From Panagrolaimus kolymaensis (lineage: Eukaryota; Nematoda; Chromadorea; Rhabditida; Panagrolaimidae), in NCBI GenBank assembly GCA_028622995.1, contig JAJQJQ010000014.1, positions 2,604,001-2,668,000 on the forward strand: a stretch of DNA of 64,000 bases. Reading direction: 5' to 3'. Under the pieces are notes generated by a model. It was given only the letters and a program-made list of their open reading frames with translations, was not told the origin of the DNA and did not search any database. Position numbers and translations under genes: made by a program. This document shows positions 1-54,700 of the stretch, one piece after another. Positions within the stretch are counted from its first letter, which is position 1, and the number at the start of each line of letters is the position of its first letter.

Positions 1-3000
1 ATTGGTATGAGTTTTATTTCATATCGACAAGAAAAAGAAACCATAAGTGTGGCGAAAGATTTTAAAGGAGTTATCACTGGAAAAGCCACAGTTATTCGTG
101 AAACAGAAGAAAGTAATATTCCTTGCGAAGATTTGGTTGTTGGTGATATCGTTGTTATAAGGTAAATCTTTTCACACTAGTTTACGAATTTAAACAAAAA
201 ATTAAAACACAATAAATTTTGAAATCTAAAAAATAAAATATCCTAAACACTTTTTTCGGTCTCGACAAGAATTTTTTAGAGTAACTATTCCTGGCCAAAA
301 AAGTTCGAATAAAATTTTTTTTACATAATTTATTGAAGAATAAAGTTACCTTTGAATCTTTGAGGACATAAAATCCATAAAAACCCTAATCTCTCGGTGT
401 CACAATGTGATTTTTTTTGTGCAAGTGTAATTTTAAAAGATTACTGCTAAAGCTTTTTATTCATTTTTTGGGATGGAGAAAAATATATTTTCATGTTTTT
501 TAGTACCGGTCAAAGAATTCCTGCTGATGTTAGGATTTTAAAAGCCAATGGTTTAATGATTGAATCTTCAGTTATTACAGGTATCTATCCTAATTTTCCA
601 CTACCATTATTTTTTCAAATGCAAAGACTTTTTTTTATTTTTGTAGGAGTTAAAAAAGTTGATGAATATCATGATGAACCCGTCGCCCGACATGTGAATG
701 TTTTTGATGCTAAAAATGTTGCTTTTAAAGGTTCATTTTGCGTTGAAGGAGATGGCATAGGTGTGGTTATCAGAACGGGGGTTTATACTGTAAGTCTCAT
801 TTTTCGCTGCTGTTTTTTTTACAGATTTTTATTTTTTACAAGGTTCTTACCACACAAATTTTATGAATCTTGTACCAAAGTTTTATTAAAAAAACGACTT
901 TCTTTATTTTTTCGTTTCGAGACTCCAAGAAATATTTTTTTGGAAGAAAAATCTTAAACATAATTTTTTAGACTTTGGCCCTCATAACTGATTTCCAAAC
1001 AGCTGTGACAACCCAAAAATCCCGTTTGCATCAAGATTTGGATCAATTTGTTAATTGCATTTCATGCGTCGCTGTAGGAATGGCATTTTTCTTTTTTATT
1101 ATTGGTTGCATAATTTCTAAATTTCAAAATATTATGTATTATTTTGTTTATGGTTTTTTAATTATTGTGGTTGCCAATATTCCTCAAGGCTTACCCGCCG
1201 TTGTTATGTCTCAGCTGGCTATTATCTCACAACGAATGGCTAAAAAACATGTGTTTATTAAAAGATTGGATGCCATTGATAAACTTGGTGCAGCCACGGT
1301 GATTTGCACCGATAAAAAAGCGAGTCTCACACAAAATTCTATGAAAGTTGTAAGACTTTGGTATAATCGAAAAGAACACCACAGTAAGTTTTTTTTCTAA
1401 CATCGTCGCCTTCTTTTAAATTTCCAATAAATTTTAGCTTTGAGTGAAACAGAACAACATATTTTTAATAAAAAATTTATTAAAAATGAACTTGAAAGGT
1501 CGTTTATTGATTTACTTTCGGTTATGTCAGTTTGTAATAAAGCTCAATTTGAACATCATACCGAAGGATTGCCACGGGTATCAACTAAAATGGCGCTTGA
1601 ACAGAAATCCAAAATGCAACAAGCAAAGTTGAACAAAAAATTCACTGTTATGTGAGTTTTAGATTTTAAAGTTTTTGATTCCTTTTAAAAAAGTAAAAAG
1701 AAAGACCTTAATTCTATCGAAACAAATTTTTCGCTTTCATTTAAAGACAAAAGCCTTTTTTTTTATCAATTTTTTTTTTCAGTACCCAAAGTGGCTTGCT
1801 AACTATAAAAGAGCCATCCGATAATCCATCAAACCTTGAAGCTGGAAATAGTAATAAAAACCTTTATGTCACCTCAAATTTACACTTTACAAAAAAGAAT
1901 AATAAATTTATTGGAGATCCCATAGAAATTTCGTTACTTAAATATGTTGAAACTGTGACTGCTGTGGATGCATTTAGAGGGAGATATCCAAAATTATTTG
2001 AAATTCCATTTAATTCTGTTCGTCGATGGCAACTTGTAATTGCCAGGTGTCAAGCTCCACCACAAAGCCCCGATGCAGTGGATATTGTGGAAAAAATTAG
2101 AGATAATCAAGTTATAAATGTTGTGATGATGAAAGGTGCACCAGAAGTTATTTTAGCCAAGTGTAGCCATTATTTAATGAATGATGCATTGGTTGAAATT
2201 GATGAAGCTTTTATTGAGCAATGCAAGGTAAACATTTTAAACAAAAAATAGTTTAAAAAATTATTTAATTACTGTAAAAAGAGAACACAAAAATATTAAA
2301 TTAATATTATATATTTTTGGTCTCGACGCGGAAGTATAAAAAGTATTTCTTAATTTTTTATTTATTTGAGCTTATTTTTATGTTTTCGAAAAATCGAAAA
2401 ATACGTGTAAAAAATATTTTTTTAATTTAGCTTAATTTTTTTAACTTTCCCAGCGAAACCAAAAATATAAAAAATATTCAATATCTTTTGTTAAAATGGC
2501 CCACATTGGAATAAAAAGAAGTGAAGGGCGGAGTAGGAACGGAATGCCAAGAGCAAAAAAGAGCAAAGATTTTAATTTTTGTTTTTAAATAAAAAGTTTA
2601 ATTAGCTATAATTCGGCATCAAATTTATCAAATTAAATACTGGTCTACAGTAATATAGATGAGAATCTTAGCTTTCATTTGAAACAAAGATCTCCCCCAA
2701 TAGGTTGAATGGGTGTCATTTTATACGCTAATGAATGCGCTTGACCGTTTCTACTCCGCCATTATTCCGATGTGGGCCGAATTTTTGAAGATTTTATTTG
2801 TATTTTCATTTCAGGACACTTGGGAACATTATGGATGTGAAGGTTGCAGAATCCTAGGATTTGCTCACAAACATTTCACTTCTACTATTCAAGAAAAATT
2901 CACAAACACTTCCACAAATTATCCTCAAGAAAATTTGGTTTTTCTTGGAATGGCAGCCATGGTTGATCCTCCCCGACCCCAAGCAGCGAAAGCCATCCAA

Positions 3001-6000
3001 CAATGTAAAGATGCAGGAATAAAAGTTTATATGATTACAGGGGATCATCCAACTTCAGCTGCAGCCATTGCAGCTCAAATAGGGTTAATAAATGGTTTAG
3101 TAAAAAATAAAGGAAATTTGGAATTTAAATCCACCAATGAACAATCTACAATTGTTTTGGGCGAAGCTTTAAAAGAAATGAGCCCAGAACAATGGACGGA
3201 ATTGTTAAAACATAAATATATAGTTTTTGCTCGAACAACCCCGGATCAAAAATTACAAATTGTTGAAGAGCTTCAAAGACATGGTGAAACTGTGGCCGTT
3301 ACAGGTTAGTTCGGGTTATTTAAAGAGCAAATGTGAGTAAATATTATAGCATGGGAAAACGTAATATGTATTTTTGAAAATTATAAAATTTTTAAAAGCT
3401 TTTACCGAGAAAAAATGCTTTCGTACGAAAACTAAAAAATTTTTCAGAGAAAAAAATAAACAAAAACTTTCATTATTTAACAAAACAAAAAAACAGTGAA
3501 AATAGGCGGATTTGTAAAATATAGGAAATTTAAGTCCTTTGGTTTCAATATTTATTAAGCACAGATCGGCCGATCGGCTGTTTACATTTCGATGGATAGT
3601 TCACAAGTGAAGAAAATGCTTGCTTCGACGCTCTTTTTAACGGAGAGCGATGAAGCAGCAATAAAAAGGATGTTTTGGGAATGCATCGCTGCCGCGATCG
3701 CACACTCCCGACAAAAAGAAGAGAAAAGTTTAACAATATGTTTGGGTTAGTAACAATTTCAAACGATATGAAATGTTTCAAAAGTTTTTCAAATAAAGTT
3801 ACAATTTAAGTTTAGCTTATTTTTGGATTAAGGTTTTTTAACAAACAATCAAAAATTAGAGGAAGCAAAGTTAGTGACACCGGAATTTCACTATCTGTTC
3901 TCATGACAGCGGCGTTGCCGAAATATCAATGGATCAACGGATGGCTCTAAGGAAGCAAAAATATCCACGAATGACCAAGTATTTTTTGATGAAACTTTGC
4001 GGTTCACTATGTCCCATGATTGTTGTTCAGTAATATTAAAAGTATGTTGATGAGCAATAAATGGCATGATGAAAATGATGTCAAAAGAAATCCAAGTTTC
4101 GGTGGCTAGGCATCTCAATCTCTCACGGAATTTAACGTATCCTTTCTAGCAATAGCCCATACATAAATGCCATTTCAAAGGCGAGGTAGTCAACTATCTT
4201 GATTCGTAACAGCGACCATTCAAAATAAACATTGAGATTTCTTTGACCATGAATAATTAACAACAATGTGAGACACATTTTTGGCGTAGACTCACAGATG
4301 TTTGATGTGGTCATTATTGCATAAATTAAGATAAAAATTAAGGAAATCGCAAATACCATGCAGCGATCCCTCCCGGCAAAAAAATAAGCGACGATGAAGT
4401 TAATGGTGAAAATTTTAGGTTTTTGACTTGTGAGGTAAAAAACACCATTAAATAGATGACAGTTTCGATACATACACTGCTTTTTCAGCAATGCAGATGG
4501 CTAGAGCCCCCATGTAAAATATAGGAAATTTAAGTCCTTTGGTTTCAATATTTATTAAGCACAGATCGGCCGATCGGCTGTTTACATTTCGATGGATAGT
4601 TCACAAGTGAAGAAAATGCTTGCTTCGACGCTCTTTTTAACGGAGAGCGATGAAGCAGCAATAAAAAGGATGTTTTGGGAATGCATCGCTGCCGCGATCG
4701 CACAGGATTTTTGATTTAAAAAGTGAAGTTTATGTTGCCAGAAAAAACCAAAAAAAGTTTCTAGAAATTAATTAAAAAAATAAATAAATAACGACTCTTC
4801 TTTAATTTTGTAAAACTTGAAAATTTTTGCAATGAAAATTAGTTTATTCTTTTTATTGGAAAAAAAATGCAAAAAATTCCTTTTTTGTTTTCCAAATATA
4901 TAATAAAAAAAAAAGTTTTTGACTCATGCAGTGAAAATACAATATTCATTTAGCTTGGAAAAGTTAAGAAAAAAAAGTAGAATGAAATCAAAAAATAAAA
5001 CAATTTTCAGGAGGAAATGTCAACGATGTTCCAGCTTTAGCTAAAGCAAACATAGGAATTGCAATGGGTCAAAGTGGAAGTGATATCGCTCAAATGACTG
5101 CAGATATAATTGTCACAGATGATAATTTTGCTTCCATTGTAAAAGGAATCGAAGAAGGCCGGCTTATGTTTGATAATTTACGAATGTCTATTGCTTATAC
5201 TCTCTCGCATTTATGGGCTGAAATAGTTCCAATTATATTAAATTTTACTCTTGGAATGCCTTTGGGATTGGAGCCACTCCAAATTTTAAGTATTGATTTA
5301 GCCACCGAATTACCTCCATCCATCGCTTTGGCATATGAACATCCAGAAAGGAATATAATGAAGGTCCCACCACGACCAGCAAAAGAAAGATTAGTTACGA
5401 AAACTTTGCTACTTTATTCTTATGGATTTGCTGGTTGCGCAATTGCATTGGGCTGCTTGGCTTCATATTTATTTGTTTACAGCTATCATGGAATTGCACC
5501 CAATGAATTAATTTTTACTGCAGGGAAATTTTGGCAGACTAATTCAGAAAATTTCACGGTTGCAAGTGGAAATAGTTTTTCAGCTCAGGACCAAATATAT
5601 ATTCGTGGTCAAGCTGCTGCAGCATGGCAAATTACATTGGTTTTATCTCAGGTAATCAATCAATCCTACAGAAATTAGAAAATTGCATTTCTATTAATTT
5701 AAACAAATTTTTGGAGACAAAAAATGTTTTCGTGGCGAGAGTCATAAATTTTGAAAAAAAATCATAGATATTTCTTTATTTTTTAAACAAAAAGTTATTA
5801 AAAAATAGTTTAAAAATTTTTGTGCCAATTATCTGATTCTTAACACGAAAAATTTCCAAAATTCTTTAATTCATATAAATTTTATGAAAAATATATCCTT
5901 GGTTTGTTTTAGGTCATTCATTTATTTATGTGTAAAACTCGTCGGGCAAGCATTTTCACTCATGGACTCTCAAATTTGATTTCTGTTTTTGCTGTTATTA

Positions 6001-12761: not shown

Positions 12762-12833
12762 TGCGTCAGGGGGGAATCGAACCCCCATCTATTGCTTGGA
12801 AGGCAACAATGCTGACCATTACACCACTGACGC
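12762..12833 (-). tRNA. tRNA-Gly(UCC)
   Basis: The minus strand folds as a 72-base cloverleaf. The acceptor stem GCGTCAG pairs with CTGACGC, the A box TGGTGTAATGG is present, and the anticodon stem GTTGC/GCAAT encloses loop CTTCCAA with anticodon TCC. The T arm GGGGGTTCGATTCCCCC gives a perfect B box. There is no intron; the discriminator base is A. On the minus strand a T-run follows within a few bases and could serve as a Pol III terminator. Confidence 0.97.
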
Positions 12834-31952: not shown

Positions 31953-33639
31953 TTATTTTGGTGCCTGCCATCCACCAAAAGCTTCTTCCAAGTCATTTGC
32001 AGCAGCAATTAAAATTCGATCATTATCTGGAGCAGCAATTAATTGTACAGAAAGTGGTATACCATTTTTGTTAAGACCCAATGGACAAACAATAGCAGGT
32101 AATCGAAGGGCATTCCAAATTCCTGTATATATTGTATTGCATCTGGTAAAAATAGGATGATTATGAAAAGGAGCTTCCAAAGGCCATGAAGGAAAAATAA
32201 GAATGCCATCATCTTTTAGCAACTCAATAATTTCCCGTCGAAGTTTATCTCGAACACTTTCAAGCTAAAAATTACATATTTTGGTTAGAAAAGCTGAAAA
32301 ACATAGTTTTTTAAAATTTACAAATTGCCTTTTCTCTTGATCGAGCTCTGGGCTTCGATCAAGTATGAGCATAATTAAAGATGGAATGGTATAATCAGAT
32401 TTTATAAAATTCTTTAACAACACTAATGTCTTCATTTGCTTCCTTTAATAAATGGGCATAAGGGATTTCTTTTATTTCACTAAAGCTTGCAACAAAAATA
32501 CTAATTGCATGATGAAGTCGTTGAAAATTTATATGATAAACTGATTTATCATATTTGTTTTCAAAAAATTTTATAACATATTGTATAGCTGTCCTGTTTT
32601 CATTTGAAAGAGGTTCAATCATAAAGGAATTTAAACCATCCATGTAAAAAAATCGTACTTTTTTCATTGAAACATGAACTGATATATTCAAGCGGTTGGC
32701 AACTTCCTCACCAACTATAACTCGAAAAACAAGTGATAAATCTTTAGCATAGCGACATAACGGCCCTACTGATACCATTCTTTTTGCATATCCTTTTGAA
32801 AAATATGGATGATGACCGTTGAGAGAAGAAGTATCTTCAGAAGGTTTTAACCCAAATATTCCATTAAAAATTGAAGGAATTCGTATGGAACCAGCAAAAT
32901 CGGACCCAATACCAAAAATTGAACCTGCCGCTCCTATTAATGCTCCTTCCCCTCCACTCGATCCACCAGCAATTCGACGAATATCATATGGATTTAAAGT
33001 TCGTCCATAAATTCTATTATTTGTTTCAACCCAATATCCTGCTTCAGGCACATTTGTAATTGCAAGAAGAATGGCCCCTGCTTCTTTAAACCTTTTAACG
33101 ACATCTGAATCATGATCAGCAATTGTGTTTTTACGAGCGACAATTCCAGCAGTATGATGAAATCCTTTTACGGCAAATGTATCTTTAATTGTAAATGGAA
33201 CACCCAAAAGTGGTTTAGTTTTTGATAACTAAAGTTAATCAAAGAAAATTTCCAAAATTTAACGATTAACTAAAGCATCTAAACTTACTTCAAGATAGTC
33301 ATTTGAAGTTTTATCCAATTCTTGAAGATAAGCATCCACTTTTACAGCTTCTTCATGAGCTTTTTTAAAATTATTTTCAACTACAGCATTGATTATTGGA
33401 TTCACATTTTTTATCCGATTGATGTAAGCTGTTATAAGTTGAACAGAAGTATATTTTCCTTTTCTAATCATATCAGCGGCATCTGTTGCAGAAAGTAAAA
33501 GAATATCATCGTTCGGTAAAGAAACGCGTATGAGAGGTTGAAAAAAGTTGTAACACTTGAATATTAAATTTACCAACCAAAAATAAAACAATGAAATTGT
33601 TTTAACAAAAGGAAAAATAGTTTTTAACTTTACTGCCAT
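31953..33639 (-). CDS. Fatty-acid-amide-hydrolase-like amidase (amidase signature family); one apparent frameshift
   Basis: Exons 33639-33289, 33228-32322 and 32264-31953. The N-terminus has a hydrophobic anchor (TISLFYFWLVNLIF), as in membrane-bound FAAH enzymes. The Ser-cisSer-Lys catalytic set is intact: Lys in GVPFTIKDTF, the cis-Ser in AGGSSGGEGALI and the nucleophile Ser in GIGSDFAGSIRIPS. The ending (NGIPLSVQLIAAPDNDRIL) is typical of the family. Such enzymes hydrolyse fatty acid amides, for example N-acylethanolamines. In the second exon the frame meets TGA near 32392 just where the family continues with KSDYTIPSLIMLIL; one extra T in a TTTT run explains it. About 520 residues otherwise. 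Functional unless the frameshift is real. Confidence 0.88.
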
Positions 33640-34905: not shown

Positions 34906-37900
34906 ATGAGTTTAAAAAGCTATCCTGTTCCTGAATTGGATTCTACTTTATCCGAAGTGAAAAAAATTTTTCATCTCATGTTTTCTGAATCTGATTATTC
35001 CAAGTTTCAAACAGCTTTGGATGATGCTCGTGATATAATGAAAAAAAATCATTTGGTCTTTCAAAATTCTGTAAAAGAAAAACATAATTGGGCTACAGAA
35101 AATTTTAATCAACATCTTTTATCCATTCGTGAGCCTATTCCATATTCAACTGCTGTTTCATGTTTTCTTCAACCTTCAAAGAATCTTCTAAATCAAGAGG
35201 ATCAAGCTGCAGCTTTACTTCATGCGGTAGCTAATTTATTTGCAAACCCATCCTTACTTCAAAATCCTGGACTTGAAACAACGCAACAAAAAAATATGTT
35301 TGCAACTTGTCGAATTCCAGGCGAAACTCATGATGAACTTGTAAATCATACAGAAAGTTGTCATGCTGTTGTTATTCATAAAGGTCATGCATATATTGTA
35401 GATATTATTGACAAAGTTGGAAATCCAATGGATATAAATGTCATTAGAAATTCCATTTTAAGAATTTTGAAAACTTCTTTGGAAACCAATCATACAATAT
35501 GTCATTTAACTGCTTTAAACCGAACTGAATGGGCTAAACTTTACCAACAAATGCTTAATGATCCCTCTGTTGAATCGGATTTAAAAAAGTTTCAAAGTGG
35601 AATCATCACTTTATCCCTCGAAAATGCTTCCTGTGATCTTAGTGACCCCATTCAAGCCTTAAAAATTTTACAAAATGGAAAAATGCGAAACTTTGATCAA
35701 ACCACGAATCTTGTTGTCTACTCCAATGCTGTTACTGGACTTATTTGTGAGCATTCCGCTGTCGATGGAATGATTATATCAGAATTAGCGGAAGGGTTAA
35801 AACAACTTACAAAGATGTCCAACAAAATTTTTAAGAAACAAAATACATTGGATATCTCTTCTGTCGCGCCATTGGAATTCAATTTAAAAAAGAGTGTAAC
35901 CATTCCAGCTGAAAAACTCACCCAAATAGCTGCTACTTATTTTGATTTTGATTTATTTCCTGACATTGTTGATTTACTAAATGAATCACGAATTTATGAT
36001 TCTTGGATTGTTTTTGCTTTACAATTTGCATTAAAGCTAACTTTTAATGATGAGTCTTTATTGACTGTAAATTTTTAGCTTAATTTTTTTATTTTATTAT
36101 TAAATTTTCTTTTTTAGGTTTTTCCTACTCATGTCAGACACTTTATGGATGGTCGTTGTGATCCAACTTATATTGTTAGTAAAGAAGCAAACAATTTGAT
36201 GGATTTTTTAAAATCTATAAACAATGAAACTTTGATGAGTGACAACAATCAAGCCATGAAAGGTTTACAATTGTTTTGTGCAGCTTTAGAAACTCTCAAA
36301 AACGAAGTAAAAAAAACAAAAATGGGATCAGCTATTGGAACTCATATTGGCATCATTCGTCAAATGCTTCCTTTTGAACATCAAGAACTTAAAACTATGC
36401 TTGAAACTTTTGCCACTCCCTCAGTTATTATTACTGGAAGCTCTGATTTGCTAAAAGCCATTGAGTTTGGAACCGGAAATATTTATGCTTCTAATCAATT
36501 ATGCGTTAATTATATTGGTAAGTAACACATAAAGAAGAGTCCATTTTTAAATTTAAATCCTACTTTTTCTTGTTGCTAAAACCCTTATAATTTTAAATCA
36601 AAAATATAGCTTTTTATTATTGAAAAGGCTTTTAAATCATTTAATAGGTTAATAAAAAGCTTTAAAAGTGATATTTATTTCAAAGTTAATCGAAAATTGA
36701 ATTTAAAATTTTTTCCTAAAAATAACTTTCAAAAAATTTCCTGGATAAAATTTGAAATTTTTCTGTTTACAACCCAAATCAAAAACCCATAATGTCTTAG
36801 TTATTTTGTTTTTTAGGTGGCAAAGATAAAATAAGAATATCCCTTAAAGCTAGTGGCTTATTTAGCGAAAAACTACCAAAACTCCAACAAAACTTTAAAA
36901 AAGCTTTGCAAACCTTGCTTATCTTTGCTGTTCAACTTGGCATCATAAAGCAAATGGATGCTACGGAAGTGGTGCTAAATGCTTTTTCAACCTCTCAAAA
37001 AACTGGTACCAATCAAAACTTTGCTCTTGCCATTCATGGTGGAGCAGGTGAAATGATTGAAATGATGTCAGAAATGAAAAGTGTTGTAAACTTTGCGCTT
37101 CGAATTGCTGTAATGATTGGTGTTGATTCTTTAAAAAAATCCGAAAGCGCAGTCATTGCTGTGGAAGCCGTGGTCAAAGCTCTTGAAAATTGTTTCATTT
37201 TTAATGCTGGCAAAGGAGCAGTTTATAATGCTCAAGGTCAACATGAGCTTGAAGCAACGATAATGGATGGAAAAACGGGAAAGGCTGGAGCTGTAGCTTG
37301 TATTCGCAACCTTAAAAATCCTGTATCTGCAGCAGCAAAAATCATGAAAGATTGCAAGCATGTATTTTTAAATGGAAAAGCTGCAGAACAATTTTGTAAA
37401 GACTTGGAAAAAGTTGATCAAAGCTATTATGACACAAATCTTCGGAAACAACAGTTTGAAGCGGTGTTTAATGGAATCAATAATACCGTTGCAAACCATC
37501 CACAAACCGTTGGAGCAGTGGCTATTGATCAACATGGTCGTTTAGCAACTGCTACATCCACGGGAGGAATGGTAAATAAAATGGAAGAAAGAATTGGTGA
37601 TACTGCAGTGATTGGTGCCGCCACATGGGCCGATGAAAAAGTTGCTATAAGTTGCACTGGTAAGCGAAATCAATAAAAATAAATCTTTTTTTATAACTAA
37701 ACTTAGGCGACGGCGAAGTATTTTTACAAAAAGCTGTAGCATCTAAAATTGCTTTCAAATTGAATGATGATCTTTCAAAAACTTGCTCGGATATTCTCAA
37801 ACATGATTTAAAGGATGTTTTAGCTGGAATTGTGGCTATTGATAAAAATGCAAACATTGTTGGCATTACAAACGCTCATATGTTTTTTGCAAGTTATAAG

Positions 37901-39194
37901 GATGGAAAAATCACGACTAAAATTGCTAGTTCCGAAAACGATCTCAATTGCAAAGAATCAAATGGATATGTTTCTTTAAAAAAAATCACTCCACCCAAAT
38001 CATGGATTGATCCTATACTTCATTCTAAAATTGCTATCACAAATCAATGGTATACTGGGGTTTTTAAACTTCAAGATACTTTATTTCATTCAACCATAGA
38101 TTATTTTCGAAAACAATGTGGTTATAGTTATGTTATGACTCCATTATCAACTAGCACCATTTCATCTCCCATGGGATTGGGATCAGATTCCTTACCGGTT
38201 TCAGTGAATTTATTTGGAGAAAACATATATCTTGCGGATTCAATGCAATTTACACTTGAATATTTTTTGAGGTAAACTCTCTTTGAACTTGATATGGCTT
38301 TTTAGCAATAACAGAAAAATTAATTTTTTAGAGTTCAAGATGGCATTCCTGGCACATATTATGTTTCACCAAGCTTTCGTGGCGAAGACCCAGATTCCAC
38401 TCATTTGAATCAATTTTATCATGTGGAATGTGAAATTCTTGGAGATATGAAAAAAGCGATGAAAATTGCTGAAGGTTTTATTCTTAATGTAACGAAAACA
38501 ATTCTTAAAAAACAAAAAGAAGTTATTTTGGCTTCCGCTGGAAGTATAAATCATGTTACACAAGTAAGAACTTTTTTTTAAGAAAAAAATCTTTAAAAAT
38601 CCAAAACTTTTAGTTATTATCCCTTTTTGAAAAACATAATGGTCAATTACCACGGATTACTTTAGATGATGCAATAGCCATAATGCCCTCATCTGATTGT
38701 TATGCTTTGGTGGAAGAAGGAAAACCAGAACTTGGATTGACTCTTAAAAGAAAAGGTGAAAGATTTTTAATTCAAAAATTTGGTGGAGCTGTTTGGCTCA
38801 CTGAAATGGATCATCTTTCCACTCCTTTTTATCAAGCATATGTGAATGGAACAGATTTAAAAAAAGCTAAAGTAGGCTAAAAGAAATTTTTAGAAAATTA
38901 ATAAATATATATATATAATATTTTTAGGCTGCTGATTTGCTCATTGGTTTAGGTGAAACTTTAGGCTTGGGTGAAAGACACGAAAGTGCTCAAGAAGTTT
39001 GTGATGCTTTAGCCCATCATCAAGTGGATCAAAAAGAATATCAATGGTATGTGGATATGCGAAAAGTAAAGCCTTTGAAAACATCCGGTTGGGGTATTGG
39101 AACGGAAAGATATTTATGTTGGTTGTTACAACATGACGACATTCGAGATATTGCAATCTTACCTCGATTGAAAGGACTCAAATATTTACCTTAA
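34906..39194 (+). CDS. Tri-domain enzyme: choline/carnitine acyltransferase - Ntn asparaginase - AsnRS-like asparagine synthetase
   Basis: Seven exons (34906-36066, 36118-36517, 36817-37659, 37707-38271, 38332-38563, 38614-38871, 38928-39194) join in perfect phase to 1241 residues. Residues 1 to about 580 are a choline/carnitine acyltransferase with the catalytic CEHSAVDG (His about 283) and the THVRHFMDGRCD and YIGGKDKIRISLK regions. Residues about 586-870 are an isoaspartyl peptidase/asparaginase (N-terminal nucleophile): IHGGAGE, TVGAVAIDQHG (Thr about 751), STGGM, RIGDT and SCTGDGE. Residues about 915-1241 are a class II aaRS core like AsnRS without an anticodon-binding domain, with motif 2 FRGEDPDSTHLNQFYHVE and motif 3 GWGIGTERYL then IRDIAILPR. 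This matches the stand-alone AsnRS-like asparagine synthetase type. Single exons span both domain junctions, so this is one protein. No signal peptide. The overall reaction is unknown. Confidence 0.92.
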
Positions 39195-40039: not shown

Positions 40040-43000
40040 CTAATTTCGTTTTATTTTAAATAAAGCATCTCTAACGAAATTTACGACAATTGAATAGTTT
40101 GGAGAATTATGATTAATAGGCTTACAAATATTATGATGATTTGCATCAATGTGATATAAGGCACCACGACCAAATGCAGCGGATTCAGGAGTGACAAAAG
40201 TTCGAAGCTTTCCAAGAAATGGAGTGCCTTTATTTTCAATAACGGATACAATGAGTGGAATCGAATCAACGACATTTAAAAAGTCGTTATGTAGCTAAAT
40301 TTTATTTTTATTTTATATAAATTTAAATTCTACAAAAAACAAACTTTTTGGTTTATATCACTTTCTTCTCGAAGCAATTTTACATCTTCAGTAGGTCGAA
40401 AAAGATTATAAGAATATGCAGTTGCAAGAGAACTTCCTTTATGGGGTGTTGCAAAAAATAAAATTCCAACAGTTTTTTCTCGCAGATTATCATTTTCAAC
40501 TAGCATATTTTTGATTAATAACCCACCCAATGAATGACAAATGAAAATCACCGGGCGAGCACCAATACCAGCATACTTGAAACTTTGTTGAAATTTACGA
40601 GATCTATCCGTGATTGTTTCCATTACTTGACCAAATTGCAATAATTTTGATGAGTAATCAAGTGCCAATATTCGAACGGGAGAATTTATATCCTTATGAA
40701 GCCAATCCTAGATTTGTAAATGTAAGAAATTAAAAAAAATTAATCGAAGATCTCACTCTAGGCCAAAAATGCGTTGTCTTCACATCTTTTTGATCTATTT
40801 GACGCCATGTCCATAATCCACTTCCTATAAAAGTTAATTAGCAAAAAAATAGGCTAAATGATTCAATTTTTGAAAAAAGTTTTGCGGCCAAGGAGTTTTC
40901 GCAGAGTTGCATAAAAATCATAAATTAAAAAAAAATAAATTGCATCTGATGATGCCCAAAAGCGTAAGCATAAATTTGTCATCAAAAAAACGCGCGATAA
41001 AAACATTATTTTCTCGATGTATACCTCTAAGTCCATGGACGAACACTACATCAAGAACAGGTGAAATGCCGGGTGGAGGTCGATGCAACTCAAAAATTGA
41101 TGGCGAAAGCTTATGAGATTCATAACTATATGAATATAAAAGATTGACAAAAATCTTATGAGCAAGTATTTCTTCTTCTTGATAACAAGGCTTTTTTAGA
41201 AGCTGAGCTAGTAAATGATACCATTCTAAAAATAAAATACACTAAAAAATAAAAGCAAAAAAATATTTACCAGAATCAAAAATAGAATCAGCACAATTTT
41301 TGCCATTTTTAGCAATATTTGCCACAACGTTGAGAACTATATTTGAAAGCTCTTTTTGAGTTTCACGATATTCTTGAAAAATATTAAATAAAGCTAGTAA
41401 TAATCCTTGTTTAACTAATTCTTGACAATTAACAAATTCAGTCCGATACAATAATACTTTCATGAGTGTAGTAAGTTTTTGAATTTTTGATGGTTTTTGT
41501 TTTAAATCGTCGGGAGCAGCCTCTTCACCTAAAAAATCAACTTAATTGTTTATCCCGCCGCACCCCGAGCGAAGCGAGGGGTGCGGCTGTTTTAGCAATG
41601 AGAACGCCCGATCTGCTAACCGAAATTTATGATTTTTTTTATTTCGTGTAATTATGTTGATATTAGAGGGCTCTCTAGGGTCAATTTTTCGTCGCATTGA
41701 CGAATTTTTAAAAAAAATAGAAGGAAGTATAGAAAAAAAGTGCTTAATCACAACATTTTAAAAGTTCACAATGTCCCGCTGAGCGTTGCAGCAAAGTTAA
41801 CGCATATTCTGGCTATAAAAATCGTTTTCTCCACCCTCAATTACCTCTATGAGTAAGCTAACTTTAAAAAACATCACATAAAAATAGATGTATGCCGCTA
41901 TGGAAATTTAAATATTTTGATTTAGAGTAAAAATATCATTGGCTAAAGTTCCTTGTTATACATTTGCTGTGTGGCGTAGGCGTTGAAGGCGGTGATGTTA
42001 GGATATTTCTGTCATAGGTTCGAATCCCCACAACTTTTTTTAATAAATTGTTTTAATTGAATTGAGACAATTATATCCAAATAATTTTTTATGATTTTTA
42101 ATAATGTTTTCATTAGAAAATATGCAAATTTTTAATAAAATATTCACAAATTTTACTTTTTTTATGAATATTAAGTTTCTTTATTATGAAATTAAAGCGA
42201 AATTATTTTTAACGATTTTCAATGAAATTTTTTTTAACTAAGCTTTTGGATCGTATATTTTTTTTTCTAAATTTAATTGGATTAGCATACAAAACTTTTA
42301 GGTATTCTAAACGCAAAATTTAATTAAAAGTACGCTGACGTTTAGTTTATGAAAAGAATAAACATAGGGAACTTTTTTTATTATTTTCGGTGATTTTAAT
42401 CGAAAAGTAACTTGAATATTTCCTTCTTATTAATTTTTATTGTTCGTTCGTTTTCGATTACTTTTGGTCGCAGTCCCAGGGCTACTAGGCTTCGCTATTT
42501 CCCATACATATTATTATTCTTTTTCTCTCTGTTTTTTTGTATCTTATCTTGAAATCTTTTATATTAAAATAGGAAATTCACCTAAAAAATTTGCATAAAT
42601 TAGAATGAAACTATATTTTGTTTTCCAAGCGCGATGAAATGATTTGGGTAATTTTCATATACATAAAAAATCAGCAAAACATGGGTTTGCTTGCTGCGCA
42701 AATTAAGTGATTTAACTATTGTAAGCTTGCTCGATGACTATAACCTTAACTTTTTGCGAATTTTTCACAAGCTGGTATAAATTTTTTTTAATGGTTCAGT
42801 TCATTGTTTATTTTGATTCGTGCAAAAAAAAAGTAACCGTTATAACTTTTTTTGTTAAAGTGCAATAAGTAGAAAAGGCAAAATCATCGGAAAAGTTAAT
42901 TAGCTTCTGATCAATTCAAGAACCCAATAAAATTAGACCGAAAAACTTTTTTTCTTTAGATTTTTGCCAAAAAAGAGTTTTAAAGGCTTACACATGTTTC

Positions 43001-45154: not shown

Positions 45155-46310
45155 ATGTCTTGCGCAAAACGCTTGCTTTATTCTTCATCCAAATTTGTGG
45201 TGGAATTAGATCCATATCCGTTTAGCCCTGGCACAGTTTATGTTAATGTAAAAAAGGGTGATGGATCCACCAAAGCTATTACAGTGTTGGATCTTTCAGT
45301 GGAGAAGTTTGTAGATTTATTACTTTTAGCTCAAAAAGTTTCACATAAATTATGTGAAAAGTTAAAAGTTCAACGGTGAGTTAGTTTTATTAATAATTTT
45401 ATATTAATTATAAATAAATAAATAAAACTTGATATTTTAGTTGTGCAATGGTAGCTTCCCCAAATTGTAATAACACACCTCCAGGTGTTCGAATTATTCC
45501 TTTACATGGATTAAAAGCTGAATGGAATGCAATGCTTTCGGGTGAACCAGAATATTATGAAACTTTTCAAGGTTTTATTTTATAAATTTATTGTGTAGCA
45601 AAAAAGAATATATATAGATTTTAAGGATATATTTCATCCAACAATGGTCCAAAAATAGCTGAAACAAAATTGGATGATTTAAGAAAACAAATTCGTGACC
45701 AACTTCATGAAACAGATGACAAAGAAGAATCTGATATATTTTATGGAGATCATTTAAAAGATAAAATAAGTTTAATTTATTAAAAAATATAAATGACTTT
45801 TGAAGGAAAAAGAATTTTTTAGAATTTATTTGTTAAAATTATTCGAAAAGAAATTCCTCAATGGCGCGTTTGGGAAGATAAAAATCATATAGCCTTTTTA
45901 ACTCCATATCCAAATACTCCTGGTTTTACTGTTGTTATTCCACGAAAACATCTTTCAAGTGATATTTTTAGGTAAATTTCATCTCTTTTTGAAGCTTATT
46001 AAAAAAAATTTAACTTTTTAGTTTAAAAAAAGATGATTACATTGCTTTGTTAAAAGCAAGCCATTATGTTTCTCAACTTCTTTGTAAAGGAATTCCAAAT
46101 GCTTGTGCATGTGGAATAATTTTTGAAGGGTTTGAAATTGATTATGCCCATGCTAAATTGATTCCAATCATTGGAGATTTCAATATCAAATCTAACGATA
46201 CCAACTTTTGTGAAGAATATAAAGGTTTTGTTAATTCCAAGGATGGAAAAAAGTTGAGTGAAGTTGAAATGGAAGAAATGACAACAAAATTGGATTTTAA
46301 TGATTTATAA
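45155..46310 (+). CDS. Double HIT-domain protein (FHIT/GalT superfamily)
   Basis: Exons 45155-45375, 45441-45571, 45626-about 45768, 45823-45971 and 46022-46310, about 310 residues. Two HIT-like halves are visible. The first is KFVVELDPYPFSPGTVYVNV followed by ANPGVRIIPLHG-type sequence (SPNCNNTPPGVRIIPLHGL). The second is LFVKIIRKEIPQWRVWEDKNHIAFLTPYPN, then GFTVVIPRKH and GFEIDYAHAKLIPI. The histidine triad is degenerate: the second half has only one His (YAHAKLIP) and the first none in that position, so hydrolase activity is doubtful. The exon 3/4 junction has a one-base phase conflict near 45769, with a GT donor one base too far. It starts 13 bases after dispersed repeat copy 2. Confidence 0.7.
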
Positions 46311-46746: not shown

Positions 46747-48739
46747 TTATTGTAACTTTGGTTTGTCCCGAAGTGCTTTGTTACAACAGAACCAATAAAA
46801 AATTCGATAAAATATCCAAAAGATTAACGATAAAATAAGTAAAATCGCAAAACCTAATGGTACAAAAATATCTAAATTATAATATTCAATAAAAGAAACA
46901 TCAGGAAAAATGAAATTAAAATCATGTTTGATTGTGTAATCGGTCCATCGAAGGAGAAGTTCGGTTGAATTAAAAGGTCTTTCAAGGATTAGAGAACGAA
47001 AATTTTTAATAGATTTTAAATAGCTGAAATAAACAATAAAATTTAATTGAGAATATTTTTTGGCAGCACTTTTTACCTTTCATTTTCCAAAGTTTTATTT
47101 AATTTTAGTGTAAGCATTTCAGCGGAAAACATGGATTTTGGTAAAAAAGTTCCAATATTTTTAAATTCAACCAGCCTTGAATTTCTTAAATGATCAGCAA
47201 ATAATGGAATACATATCATAGGAGTCATTGTTAAAATAGCTTCTTGCAAACCATTAAAGCCACAATGGGAAATAAAAGCTACCGTTTTATTGTTGGCTAA
47301 TAAACTGGTTTGTGGAATCCATTTTTTTGTTAAAACATTTTTAGGTAATGTTATACTTGTTGAATCATCAAATTGCCATACAAAATTAATATTTTCATTT
47401 ACTTTGAAAAAATTTACAAATTCTTTTTTCCATTGTAATGGAAAATCTTTAGAATTTGCTATAGTACCAAAAGAAACAACAACAATGGGTTTTAGGGATT
47501 CTTCCACAAAAGTTTTAAATTCATCTTGAAGAGGCTTGGATGTATCCATTCCAATACTTCCAATGTTTATAACTGCAGGCGAAATAAAACGAGGATATTC
47601 CAAAACTTCAAAATCATTTACAAAAATAAGTTTAGATTTTCGAATTAAACTTTGAATGGATGGGAAATTGGGTCCAAATTGGTTTTGAATAAGTTGATTG
47701 TAACTTTGAAAATAAAACTTTGAAGCTATAAATGTAAATGCCGCAGATAATGTAGCGTCTTTCCTTTCAACAAAAGTTAATTGATTTGTTGTATTGGAAA
47801 ATAAAGCTAAAAAAAAAAGATTGGGTTTTATCGAACTTTTTTTCTCAAATATTAATTTACCTGGTACAGAACTTGGAGGGCTTGGAATGCCAAAGCATCG
47901 AAAAACTTGTTCAACAACTGGTGAACTCATAGTATACATCCATTTAAGAACTTTGGCATGATGCATTACAGCAAAAGGGCATATATCATATGAATGTAAT
48001 TTAAACACAACATCAAATTTTTCTTTTTCTATATCTTTCAAAAACTTTTCATCATTTAATAAAACTGTAAAATTAAATATTTAAAAAAATATAAAGATAT
48101 TAAATTCAGTTTTTTACCCTTGCATCCACCCAAAAATAATTCATTAAATTGTTTACTCATTTCCCAAAGCAATTTCCAACTTGATTTTCCATAAATTAGT
48201 TGATTTTCAAGATCAGCAAATTTATCAAATTCAATAGAAGAATTAAAAATTTGAAAATAAATTTCACGAACTTCAGGAATTGGGTTTTTAAAGGCTCGAG
48301 TTTTGGGATTGAATTCGGATCGAATCATTACAATTTCATGATGCTTTGAAAGAACTTCAGCAAGTCGATATCCAAATACCAACTAAAAAAAGTAAGTAAA
48401 ATTACTAATGGCTTTTAAAAAAAATATAATAAGCTTTTTAAATAGTTATTTGGCAAAAAAAAAAAATTAAGCTCAAACTACAAAATTTTAATTTTAAAAA
48501 TTTAATTATTTTCCAATGTAATTTTTATTTGTAAATTCATTTAACTGTATTAAAAAATGTTAAAGATTAAAAATAAATTAATTTTCGTGAACTCTTTATT
48601 ATTTATTGACTATGATCAAAATTTATTTTGTTATAAAGCAACTTACTTGACTATTATGGAATGCTGAAACAAATATCCCAATTTTTCCAGCATTTATAAT
48701 ATTAAAAAATAAAACTATTAAAAATATACTTAATTTCAT
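46747..48739 (-). CDS. UDP-glycosyltransferase (UGT1/2-like)
   Basis: Exons 48739-48647, 48382-48118, 48064-47861, 47806-47077 and 47023-46747 join in phase to 522 residues, the normal family length. It opens with a signal peptide (MKLSIFLIVLFFNIINAG). The donor-sugar signature is clear: WIPQTSLLANNKTVAFISHCGFNGLQEA, then PLFADHLRNS (DQ in most members is DH here). A C-terminal membrane anchor (FVPLGFAILLILSLIFWIFY) with a basic cytosolic tail follows. It probably conjugates lipophilic small molecules in the ER lumen. One intron of 54 bases (47807-47860) is in frame and could be mistaken for coding; it is bounded by GTAAAT and TTTTAG. Confidence 0.93.
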
Positions 48740-51715: not shown

Positions 51716-54700
51716 ATGTCAGAAATATTAATACCATCTTCAACCGAATCATCTTTAAGTACAACTATTGCATCCATATTATTGACGACGACAAGTACTG
51801 TGACCATGATTAAAAATGCTCCCGCTGCATTGGAAATCATTAATCCCCTAGCAATTTATTTATTTTATTTATTTTATTTATTTTATTTATTATCTTTTAT
51901 CTGTCTCGAAGGACGAAAGATTCTAACAAACGACACCACGAATCATACAAAGCAATGACATTGAGACGTTGGAAATTTTTTTCTTGAGTATGTTTCATAA
52001 TGTCATCAATCCAGCGAGTTGGAGGACGTCCAAGAGGTCTCTTGCCAGCAGGTTTCCATTCAGTCAGTAAACGATTCCATCGATTGTCAGGAAGCAGCAG
52101 GAGTTTACGAAGATAATTCCATTTTCTTTTTCTTGCTTGATGAACGAAATCATTGAGACCAGTTCTTTCACGAAGCCATTCACGAGGATGTTGATCGATT
52201 AATTTCACGTTTAGCATTCTTCTTTCCATTCTTCGTTGAGCTACAGCAAGACGATCTTCTTCAGATTTGGTCAAAGCCCAGGTTTCACATCCATACAATA
52301 TGGCAGGAAGCACACATTGATGAAGATATTTTCTTTTCAAGTTCATTGGGACTCTTCTTGACATCAGCAAATTCTTCGCTTTGTAGAAAGAGCTCCATCC
52401 GGCAGATATTCTTCGAGAGATTTCTTTGTTGAATCGTTTTGGTTTTGAAGGCCAATAGATCAGTTGACCGAGATATATAAATTCATTTACCAATTCAACT
52501 TGTAGATCATCAAGAAGTAAAGTTCCATCAGGAGTATTCGCATTAGTCATCCACTTTGTTTTATCGACGTTGATTTCGAGTCCAACAGTAGCAGAAGTTC
52601 CAGCGACTTGGTTGAGCAAACATTGGAGACCTTCCAATGAATGAGAGCATAGCATGATGTCATCAGCAAAAGTGAGATATCCTAGTTTTTTTCCATTGAT
52701 GTTGATTCCAGCATTCCAGTTGACAAGATCAAGAGCAGTTTGAAGGGTAAGAGCAAAGAGGATAGGCGAGAGCGTATCTCCTTGTCTTACACCTTTTTGG
52801 ACATTGATGTTGATAGATGAAGAGCCAATATTTATACTTGATGTACCACCAGCATAGATCATTTTGATGATTTCAATTGTACCAGGATCAATACCAAATT
52901 TTTGAAGAGCATTCCATAGAGCAGAAAGTTCAATGGAGTCAAATGCTTTTTTGAAGTCAATAAAAACAACAAAAAGAGGCAAATTGAACTCACGACACTT
53001 TTCAAATAGTTGATTTGCGGTATGTATATGATCAATAGTTGAGTAACATCTTCGGAATCCAGCTTGTTGAGGAGGAAGAGCACCAGAAGTTTCAGCAGCA
53101 TCCATTACACGTTGAGTAAGTACTCGAGTCATCAGCTTATACAAGACAGGAAGTAGTGAAATAGGACGATAGTTTTCAATATTGTTTCTATTTCCTTTCT
53201 TGGGAAGCAAGATGGTTTTCGAATGAAGTAGTTCAGGAGGCAGATTGTTTCCGAGTAGTAATCCATTTAGAGCATCAGCAAGTCTTATAGCAAAACTTGA
53301 AATTGTTGTTTTGACAGCTTTTGATGGAATATTGTCGGCGCCAGGAGCAGTGTTAGCCTTCATTCGACGAGCAGCAGAGATAAGTTCATCAGGAGTAATT
53401 TCCGCAATTGAAACTTCTGGATCACGAACATGAACATAGTTCCCATCTCGAGATACATAGAGTTTTTCATAGAATTGAACGATGACATCCATGAGTTCAG
53501 CAACAGTTTCAGTGACAGTACCATCCGATCGAGTCAGTTGGACCATTTGATTCCGTCTTTGGATCATTTCAGAGCGACCACGTTTCAGTCGGTTGTCTTG
53601 GATAGCCCGTTCCATCACGTTTATATAATGACTAATGAGATCATTTTTAACGGATTTACGGACCAGTTTACAAAGTTCAGAATATTCTACAAGAGCATGA
53701 CGAGCATCAGTCAAACCATGTTTCATTTCACGACGTTGTTCCATAAGATCAAGAGTTGTTTGTGAGAGTCTAGAAAATAAAACAGGTTGATAAGAGCTTA
53801 CTTTTGAACTTGTTATGAGAGCAGATTTGATTTGTTCTAGTTCAACTTTAGGATTTGTAGCAGTTGGAAGTGTTTTCAGTTGTTCATTCATAGAGAAGAT
53901 GAGCAGCGATTTATCATAATCAGGAGTGACAAAGTTACATGGTTGAGAACGAGCATATTTCTTTATTGGAATGTTTATCATAGCACGAACCATACGATGA
54001 TCACTACCAGAGAATCTATTAAGCACTGTTACATCTTGAACGATTGATTTCTTTTTAGTGAGAATGTAGTCGATTTCTTTTGTTGTTTTTCCATTTGGTG
54101 AATGCCAGGTCCATCTTCGGTTTCGTCCTTTTTTGAAGTATGTGTTCATAAGGTACAGCTCATTTGATTCACAGAAGTTGTATAAGAGTTGACCATGTTC
54201 ATTTCGAGAGTCAAAAGAGAACTTACCGATATAGTTTTCACCAGCTTCACCAAGACCAGTCGACGCATTAAAATCACCAAGAATCAATTAATAAGTTACA
54301 CGACCAGAAAGAGCATCTTCAAGTTGAGAAAGGAACATTTCATATTCTTCTTCGCCACGTCCACTTTGAGGAGCATAGACTTGGGTAACCCGGAATGTCT
54401 TACCTCCACGAAGTTTGAAAAGGATTTGGATCAGTCGATCAAAAATGTATTTAACACCAATTATTTTCTTGTTAAGTTCAGGACAAATCAAAAGAGCAAC
54501 ACCAGAATAGCCAAAAACAGACTTACCACTATTGTACATGAAGTATCCAGATGAGAGTTGTTCACATGTTTGACCAATTTTCCATGTTTCAGCAAGACCA
54601 AGAATATCAAATTTCTTCAATTTTGAAAGTTCATTTTGAAACGATTGGAATCATTAAACATAATTCGAATAATTGGAGAAATATTATTTAGCATTGGAAT

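Follow-up and report, generated by a model that had tools for sequence, protein, structure and literature searches.

A nematode gene joining acyltransferase, asparaginase and AsnRS-like domains, and a nearby gene for a putative tandem HIT partner

Introduction

The closest described relative of the gene reported here is saiyan (si:ch211-256m1.8), which in the clownfish is expressed in white skin and not in orange skin, and for which the clownfish report gives no earlier known function (PMC12918100). It has been used as an iridophore marker in fish (PMC12919797), in a paper that cites Salis et al. for an iridophore phenotype. No paper on the chemistry of this enzyme was found in the literature searched; the family is already in databases and, as far as we searched, is biochemically uncharacterised. 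We analysed a stretch of 64,000 nucleotides from the nematode Panagrolaimus kolymaensis (contig JAJQJQ010000014.1, positions 2,604,001 to 2,668,000), referred to below as the window, with coordinates counted from its first letter. It carries a gene at 34906-39194 in which choline/carnitine acyltransferase, asparaginase and AsnRS-like domains are fused, and a separate gene at 45155-46310 that encodes a tandem HIT protein. By homology, the fused gene is the nematode orthologue of the animal multi-enzyme protein known in fish as saiyan.

The residues of the HIT protein recall those of MccH, a HIT hydrolase that cuts the P–N bond of an aspartamide-adenylate. In this enzyme the third histidine of the triad is a lysine, the triad is preceded at a distance of six residues by a glutamate, and there is no counterpart of the N-terminal His39; the replacement of the lysine with histidine, or of the central histidine with asparagine, abolishes activity (PMC7157772). 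The toxic payload of microcin C has been termed an isoaspartyl-nucleotide (abstract of PMC9239234).

Results

Structure and Domains of the Fused Gene

When joined across GT-AG introns, the following seven exons gave one reading frame of 1241 residues with no stop, as had been proposed in a first-pass annotation made from the sequence.

34906..36066, plus strand: exon 1, acyltransferase; start codon at 34906-34908, His283 codon at 35752-35754
36118..36517, plus strand: exon 2, acyltransferase; contains GRCDPTY
36817..37659, plus strand: exon 3, final part of the acyltransferase and the greater part of the asparaginase; Thr751 codon at 37506-37508
37707..38271, plus strand: exon 4, end of the asparaginase and start of the AsnRS-like core; site of the tandem HIT in the fish, scorpion and Lingula proteins
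38332..38563, plus strand: exon 5, AsnRS-like core with motif 2; Arg1006 codon at 38378-38380
38614..38871, plus strand: exon 6, AsnRS-like core
38928..39194, plus strand: exon 7, AsnRS-like core including motif 3; Arg1214 codon at 39108-39110; stop

The bridging of a domain junction by each of exons 3 and 4, which had also been claimed, was confirmed. An alternative donor of exon 5 at 38554 leaves the frame likewise open and gives 1238 residues. Just 5' of the ATG lies a T-rich stretch that ends in AG, which would suit a trans-splice acceptor.

In Pfam, residues 7-533 matched Carn_acyltransf (E 1.5e-54, 186 bits against a cut-off of 22.3), residues 590-870 matched Asparaginase_2 (E 1.1e-70, 238.7 bits against a cut-off of 27), and residues 912-1234 matched tRNA-synt_2 (E 6.3e-33, above the curated cut-off). 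The motifs that we take to be those of the three active sites are intact, in agreement with the first reading of this DNA. The catalytic His283 of the acyltransferase part sits in CEHSAVDG, and Thr751 of the asparaginase part, in TVGAVA, aligns with residue 1 of beta chains of known structure. Both motif 2 (SFRGED...HLNQF, with Arg1006) and motif 3 (GWGIGTER, with Arg1214) are kept in the AsnRS-like part, as they are in 203 and 216, respectively, of 220 family rows.

A stretch with a role in acceptor binding, GRTDTIR in the aligned carnitine acetyltransferase, reads GRCDPTY in the worm protein and in 131 of the 151 family rows whose His motif could be read. Because of this replacement, carnitine and choline are both unlikely to be the acyl acceptor.

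The AsnRS-like core had no Pfam match to a tRNA anticodon-binding domain up to E 0.1, and it is preceded by the asparaginase. The best NCBIfam models for the fused protein were those of asparagine synthetase A (217.9 bits with the asparagine synthetase A-like model NF005053, whose cut-off is 322) and beta-aspartyl-peptidase (176.2 bits against a cut-off of 567), and the cut-offs of all AsnRS and asparagine synthetase models listed were missed. With no tRNA-binding domain found and the scores under the cut-offs, we rejected the identification of this part as a true AsnRS.

Homologues of the Fused Protein

A search with the whole protein gave 236 homologues, of which the best 120 were examined; further protein searches covered the best 120 of 144 matches of the HIT protein and the best 120 of 221 in a length-limited search. 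All three domains were present in 119 of the best 120 of the 236 homologues, the exception being a Panagrolaimus record of 912 residues (P0108), which stops before the AsnRS-like part. By name, the listed homologues were mostly teleosts, joined by a scorpion, Lingula and Rotaria, and many shorter fish records were still among the matches listed in the length-limited search. The Rotaria protein (P0100) was 44% identical to the fused protein over 95% of the query, and the match with Panagrolaimus sp. ES5 was 53%. Since the homologues, such as Rotaria P0100, keep the identical order, the three domains are best taken as one gene product. The structure model of the Rotaria three-domain protein had a mean pLDDT of 71.9 and was poor in the AsnRS-like part. 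The fungal proteins listed contain the asparaginase and the AsnRS-like core, often also HIT, and are without the acyltransferase. An ostracod record (P0302) looks fish-like, and contamination may be involved.

The three-domain architecture is not unique to the worm. The first-pass annotation had regarded it as new and had known of no described protein with this order; the same order is common among the fish database records listed and occurs also in a scorpion, a brachiopod and a rotifer, with fungi having the form that lacks the acyltransferase. We consider the structure of the fused gene and its orthology to be practically certain.

The Tandem HIT Module Is Encoded Separately in the Worm

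Between the asparaginase and the AsnRS-like core, the proteins of fish, scorpion and Lingula contain about 300 extra residues, the second half of which matches HIT in Pfam. The junction is 283 residues longer in the scorpion, the landmark distance being 373 residues there versus 90 in the worm and 78 in Rotaria, and no HIT module lies between residues 870 and 912 of the worm fused protein. By blastp with the HIT protein of the window, the module was found in 214 of the 220 fused rows listed; the six rows without it were P0100, P0108, P0109, P0315, P0335 and P0336. One of these, P0108, stops short of the module site. As this record ends before the junction, it cannot show a HIT-less fusion, and its end is perhaps a gene-model cut.

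The possibility that the worm is devoid of a HIT partner was rejected once the separate gene, which the first-pass annotation had overlooked, was found. It starts 5961 bases downstream of the end of the fused gene, on the same strand, and encodes a protein of 309 amino acids.

45155..45375, plus strand: exon 1
45441..45571, plus strand: exon 2
45626..45765, plus strand: exon 3; keeping the reading frame that relatives conserve requires an AT-AG intron after it
45823..45971, plus strand: exon 4
46022..46310, plus strand: exon 5, with the MccH-like ExxxxxYAHAK; His257 codon starting at 46149; stop

The intron at 45766-45822 is non-canonical, with the donor ATAAGT and an AG acceptor. A GT-AG alternative (45769 to 45851) would give 301 amino acids and lose NLFVKIIRKE, residues that are conserved in relatives. 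The chance of a single-copy gene lying within 6 kb, computed for one copy, was about 4.5e-5. Between the two genes is a PGAP1-like alpha/beta hydrolase piece on the minus strand (40333-40707).

Separate HIT proteins were also found in Panagrolaimus sp. ES5 (P0121; 61% identity over 100% of the length, the closest among the matches listed) and in Rotaria (P0125; 45% identity over 93%). The ES5 assembly amounts to 265.8 Mb. In a structure model (pLDDT 91.9), P0121 matches GalT-type tandem HIT enzymes over its full length and HINT over one half. Both P0100 and P0125 of Rotaria are given a longest contig of 17659 bases, and their genes therefore probably share a contig.

When 41 HIT modules were placed in a tree, the window protein, P0121 and P0122 formed a clade (100/99) within the clade of animal rows. 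The fish stand-alone rows were nested among the fish fused rows, while Rotaria, Hydra P0130 and one further row were grouped at 100/100, and the fork joining these groups was weakly supported. A single origin for all stand-alone HIT genes was not supported, as the fish stand-alone rows lie within the fish fused rows. Most simply, the fused protein would have lost the module in one or more events, with a copy of it retained in trans. The position of Hydra P0130 beside Rotaria would be due to transfer or contamination.

The second HIT of the family shares its lysine and glutamate with the MccH clade. The pattern E-x5-[YHLW]-x-H-x-K was present in 205 of 220 fused rows and in 120 of 121 stand-alone rows. 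In the window protein it ends in YAHAK, in which lysine replaces the third histidine of the triad, as in MccH. At the position of His39 the window protein has phenylalanine; among the readable rows (207 fused, 111 stand-alone), this residue was never histidine and mostly leucine or phenylalanine. Bacterial HIT proteins with both the glutamate and the lysine were found in Pseudoalteromonas and Salmonella records (39% and 36% identical, respectively). We consider the HIT protein to be very probably the partner of the fused protein in trans.

Bacterial Relatives of the AsnRS-like Core

Relatives of the AsnRS-like core, 32-59% identical, were collected at 52 bacterial loci of several phyla (L001-L052). 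Except for L001, their frames have 328-430 residues, and the one scanned (L003) matched tRNA-synt_2 only; a full AsnRS with its anticodon domain is longer than that. A Peptidase_S66-like gene was found by blastp in 43 of the 52 loci (L001 counted), in 29 of them within 3 kb. The background, 23 matches in about 70.7 Mb from ten of these genomes, predicts 0.26 in the 809 kb of the loci. This excess is large and extends across several phyla; the loci are related, so no probability is attached to it. A few of the S66 frames start too early and overlap the AsnRS-like gene. A profile of 14 S66 proteins matched MccF-like structures at 1e-115 and a protein named MccF at 1e-90, versus 1e-50 and 1e-41 for murein carboxypeptidases. 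MccF is a microcin C immunity enzyme.

Methyltransferase-like genes were present in 42 of the 52 loci (by blastp, with no background control), YcaO, TfuA, ThiF, AMP-binding and ATP-grasp genes at some loci, and another class II synthetase-like gene in five scanned loci, in one case under the cut-off. In L017, from a Legionella metagenome-assembled genome, an asparaginase lies 3.5 kb from the AsnRS-like gene. A lysine-type HIT is near this gene in L005, and the one in L050 has the ordinary HxHxH triad. By their gene content the loci would resemble natural-product clusters. In a tree of AsnRS-like proteins, 24 bacterial rows were separated by a 100/100 branch from 17 rows comprising fungi, animals, three other proteins and L001.

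The contig L001, from a metagenome-assembled genome of Candidatus Parabeggiatoa, differs from the other loci. Its positions 1-4500 form a single open frame of 1500 residues that holds all four parts and is truncated by the end of the contig. The acyltransferase part was the only match in that genome, and none was found in 14 control genomes; the G+C content was 53.6% in the frame versus 40.7% in the flank. Eukaryotic contamination is less likely as an explanation of this contig because a 333-base piece of its flank matched 89 times across many contigs of that genome. With repeats of the flank spread over that genome, the whole four-enzyme unit was probably transferred horizontally; L001 groups with the eukaryotic rows in the tree. 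Such a transfer would suggest that the four enzymes act together.

Other Features of the Window

12762-12833, minus strand: tRNA-Gly (TCC), the sole Rfam match that reached the gathering threshold in the window
32398-33228, minus strand: piece of an amidase (PF01425) gene
47076-48080, minus strand: piece of a UDP-glucuronosyltransferase
51900-54287, minus strand: reverse transcriptase and part of an endonuclease, a retroelement frame of 796 residues

Discussion

The proteins of fish, scorpion and Lingula have their parts in the order acyltransferase, hydrolase of the asparaginase/isoaspartyl-peptidase type, tandem HIT and AsnRS-like ligase. From the gene models, homologies, residues and bacterial neighbours observed here, we would predict an enzyme chemistry in which the AsnRS-like core uses ATP to activate aspartate or one of its close derivatives, which is then coupled to a small amine rather than to a tRNA. 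The second HIT, with its MccH-like histidine and lysine, would release AMP from an aspartyl-nucleotide that is either an intermediate or a dead-end product, the Thr hydrolase would trim or recycle an aspartyl amide, and the acyltransferase would cap an acceptor other than carnitine or choline. All four enzymes would serve one small-molecule pathway, which in fish would be relevant to iridophores. We propose this dedicated aspartyl-adenylate/amide pathway, with the HIT enzyme acting in trans in the worm, because MccH-like residues occur in the HIT module and MccF-like S66 genes lie beside the bacterial AsnRS-like relatives, and we give it an even chance of being correct. A wider analogy, which we consider doubtful, would have animals and fungi making an aspartyl-nucleotide or aspartamide metabolite akin to a microcin C-type payload on a multi-enzyme assembly line, with bacterial relatives of the ligase in MccF-bearing clusters, a split of the unit in a nematode and a rotifer, and use of the product in fish iridophores.

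Several observations weigh against this proposal. The S66 genes adjoin stand-alone bacterial AsnRS-like enzymes and not the fused form, some of the matches are weak or 5-7 kb distant, and the flanks examined at nine of the 52 loci show no S66 gene. An acyltransferase was found in L001 only, an asparaginase nearby in one locus besides the fused L001, and a lysine-type HIT in one. As the 24 bacterial rows form a clade of their own, the function of these enzymes could differ from that of the eukaryotic ones. The first histidine of the triad is tyrosine in the window protein and in most rows (histidine in 20 of 220 fused rows), the HIT gene may be mis-assembled or decaying because it needs a non-canonical donor, and the iridophore phenotype is second-hand.

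The same HIT and S66 evidence could be read as detoxification, in which the unit would destroy aspartyl- or isoaspartyl-nucleotide toxins resembling microcin C. The AsnRS-like core would bind the toxin, the HIT enzyme would cut the P–N bond, the Thr hydrolase would act on the aspartyl amide and the acyltransferase would acylate the product. Both the MccH marks of the HIT module and the MccF-like peptidases near the bacterial relatives would suit such a role, and microcin C immunity is described as employing P–N cleavage and aspartate acetylation (PMC7157772). However, a ligase that uses ATP and retains motifs 2 and 3 in nearly all rows would be superfluous in it, and an iridophore role in fish fits it poorly, so that we find it improbable. 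We find it equally improbable that the unit channels ammonia freed from asparagine by the asparaginase to the AsnRS-like core for the amidation of another carboxylic acid. The joining of the asparaginase to this core in animals, and in fungi even without the acyltransferase, with the motifs of both kept, would suit such channelling, but an asparaginase was near the core only in L017 and fused to it in L001 among the 52 bacterial loci, and the HIT module would be left unexplained.

The conserved HIT module also has no place in a plain pair of asparagine synthetase and asparaginase that would tune the asparagine level, with an unrelated acyltransferase attached. The names of the best NCBIfam models favour this reading; both models scored far below their cut-offs, though, and the pair would be futile, which makes it slightly less probable still. 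In support of a dedicated pathway over plain asparagine metabolism, a preference already voiced in the first-pass annotation, are the lack of a detected tRNA-binding domain, the sub-cut-off scores, GRCDPTY and the S66 neighbours. An assembly or gene-model artefact fusing separate genes, to which the two open donors of exon 5 might point, is hardly credible when several animal groups share the fusion and exons 3 and 4 each cross a domain junction. Of the initial interpretation as a whole, the gene, its motifs and the preference for a dedicated pathway were upheld, and the novelty of the architecture was not. What the worm adds is that its split form shows which enzyme is the fourth member of the unit; from the bacterial neighbours, aspartyl-nucleotides and aspartamides would be the first candidate substrates.

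Compared with known systems, the AsnRS-like core resembles AsnRS and asparagine synthetase A in being a class II core with motifs 2 and 3, the best solved relative being the AsnRS 1x54, and differs from them in having no detected tRNA-binding domain and in scoring below every listed cut-off. Its bacterial stand-alone relatives are unfused except in L001, and their neighbours add methyltransferases, YcaO/TfuA and ThiF. The HIT protein, compared by residues only, shares with MccH the lysine at the third histidine, the glutamate six residues before the triad and the loss of the His39 equivalent, whereas the HIT of this family is tandem and mostly has tyrosine at the first histidine of the triad. 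The split into a three-domain protein and a separate double-HIT protein is the same in Rotaria sp. Silwood2 (P0100 and P0125); in Panagrolaimus sp. ES5, P0121 is the separate HIT protein, and P0108 reaches neither the junction nor the AsnRS-like part. Finally, the teleost saiyan protein (about 1575 amino acids) has the same three domains in the same order, most fish rows aligning best at 34-39% across some 70% of the query, and others at 55-65% across some 30%, in local alignments; it carries the tandem HIT between the asparaginase and the AsnRS-like core, where the worm has a separate gene instead.

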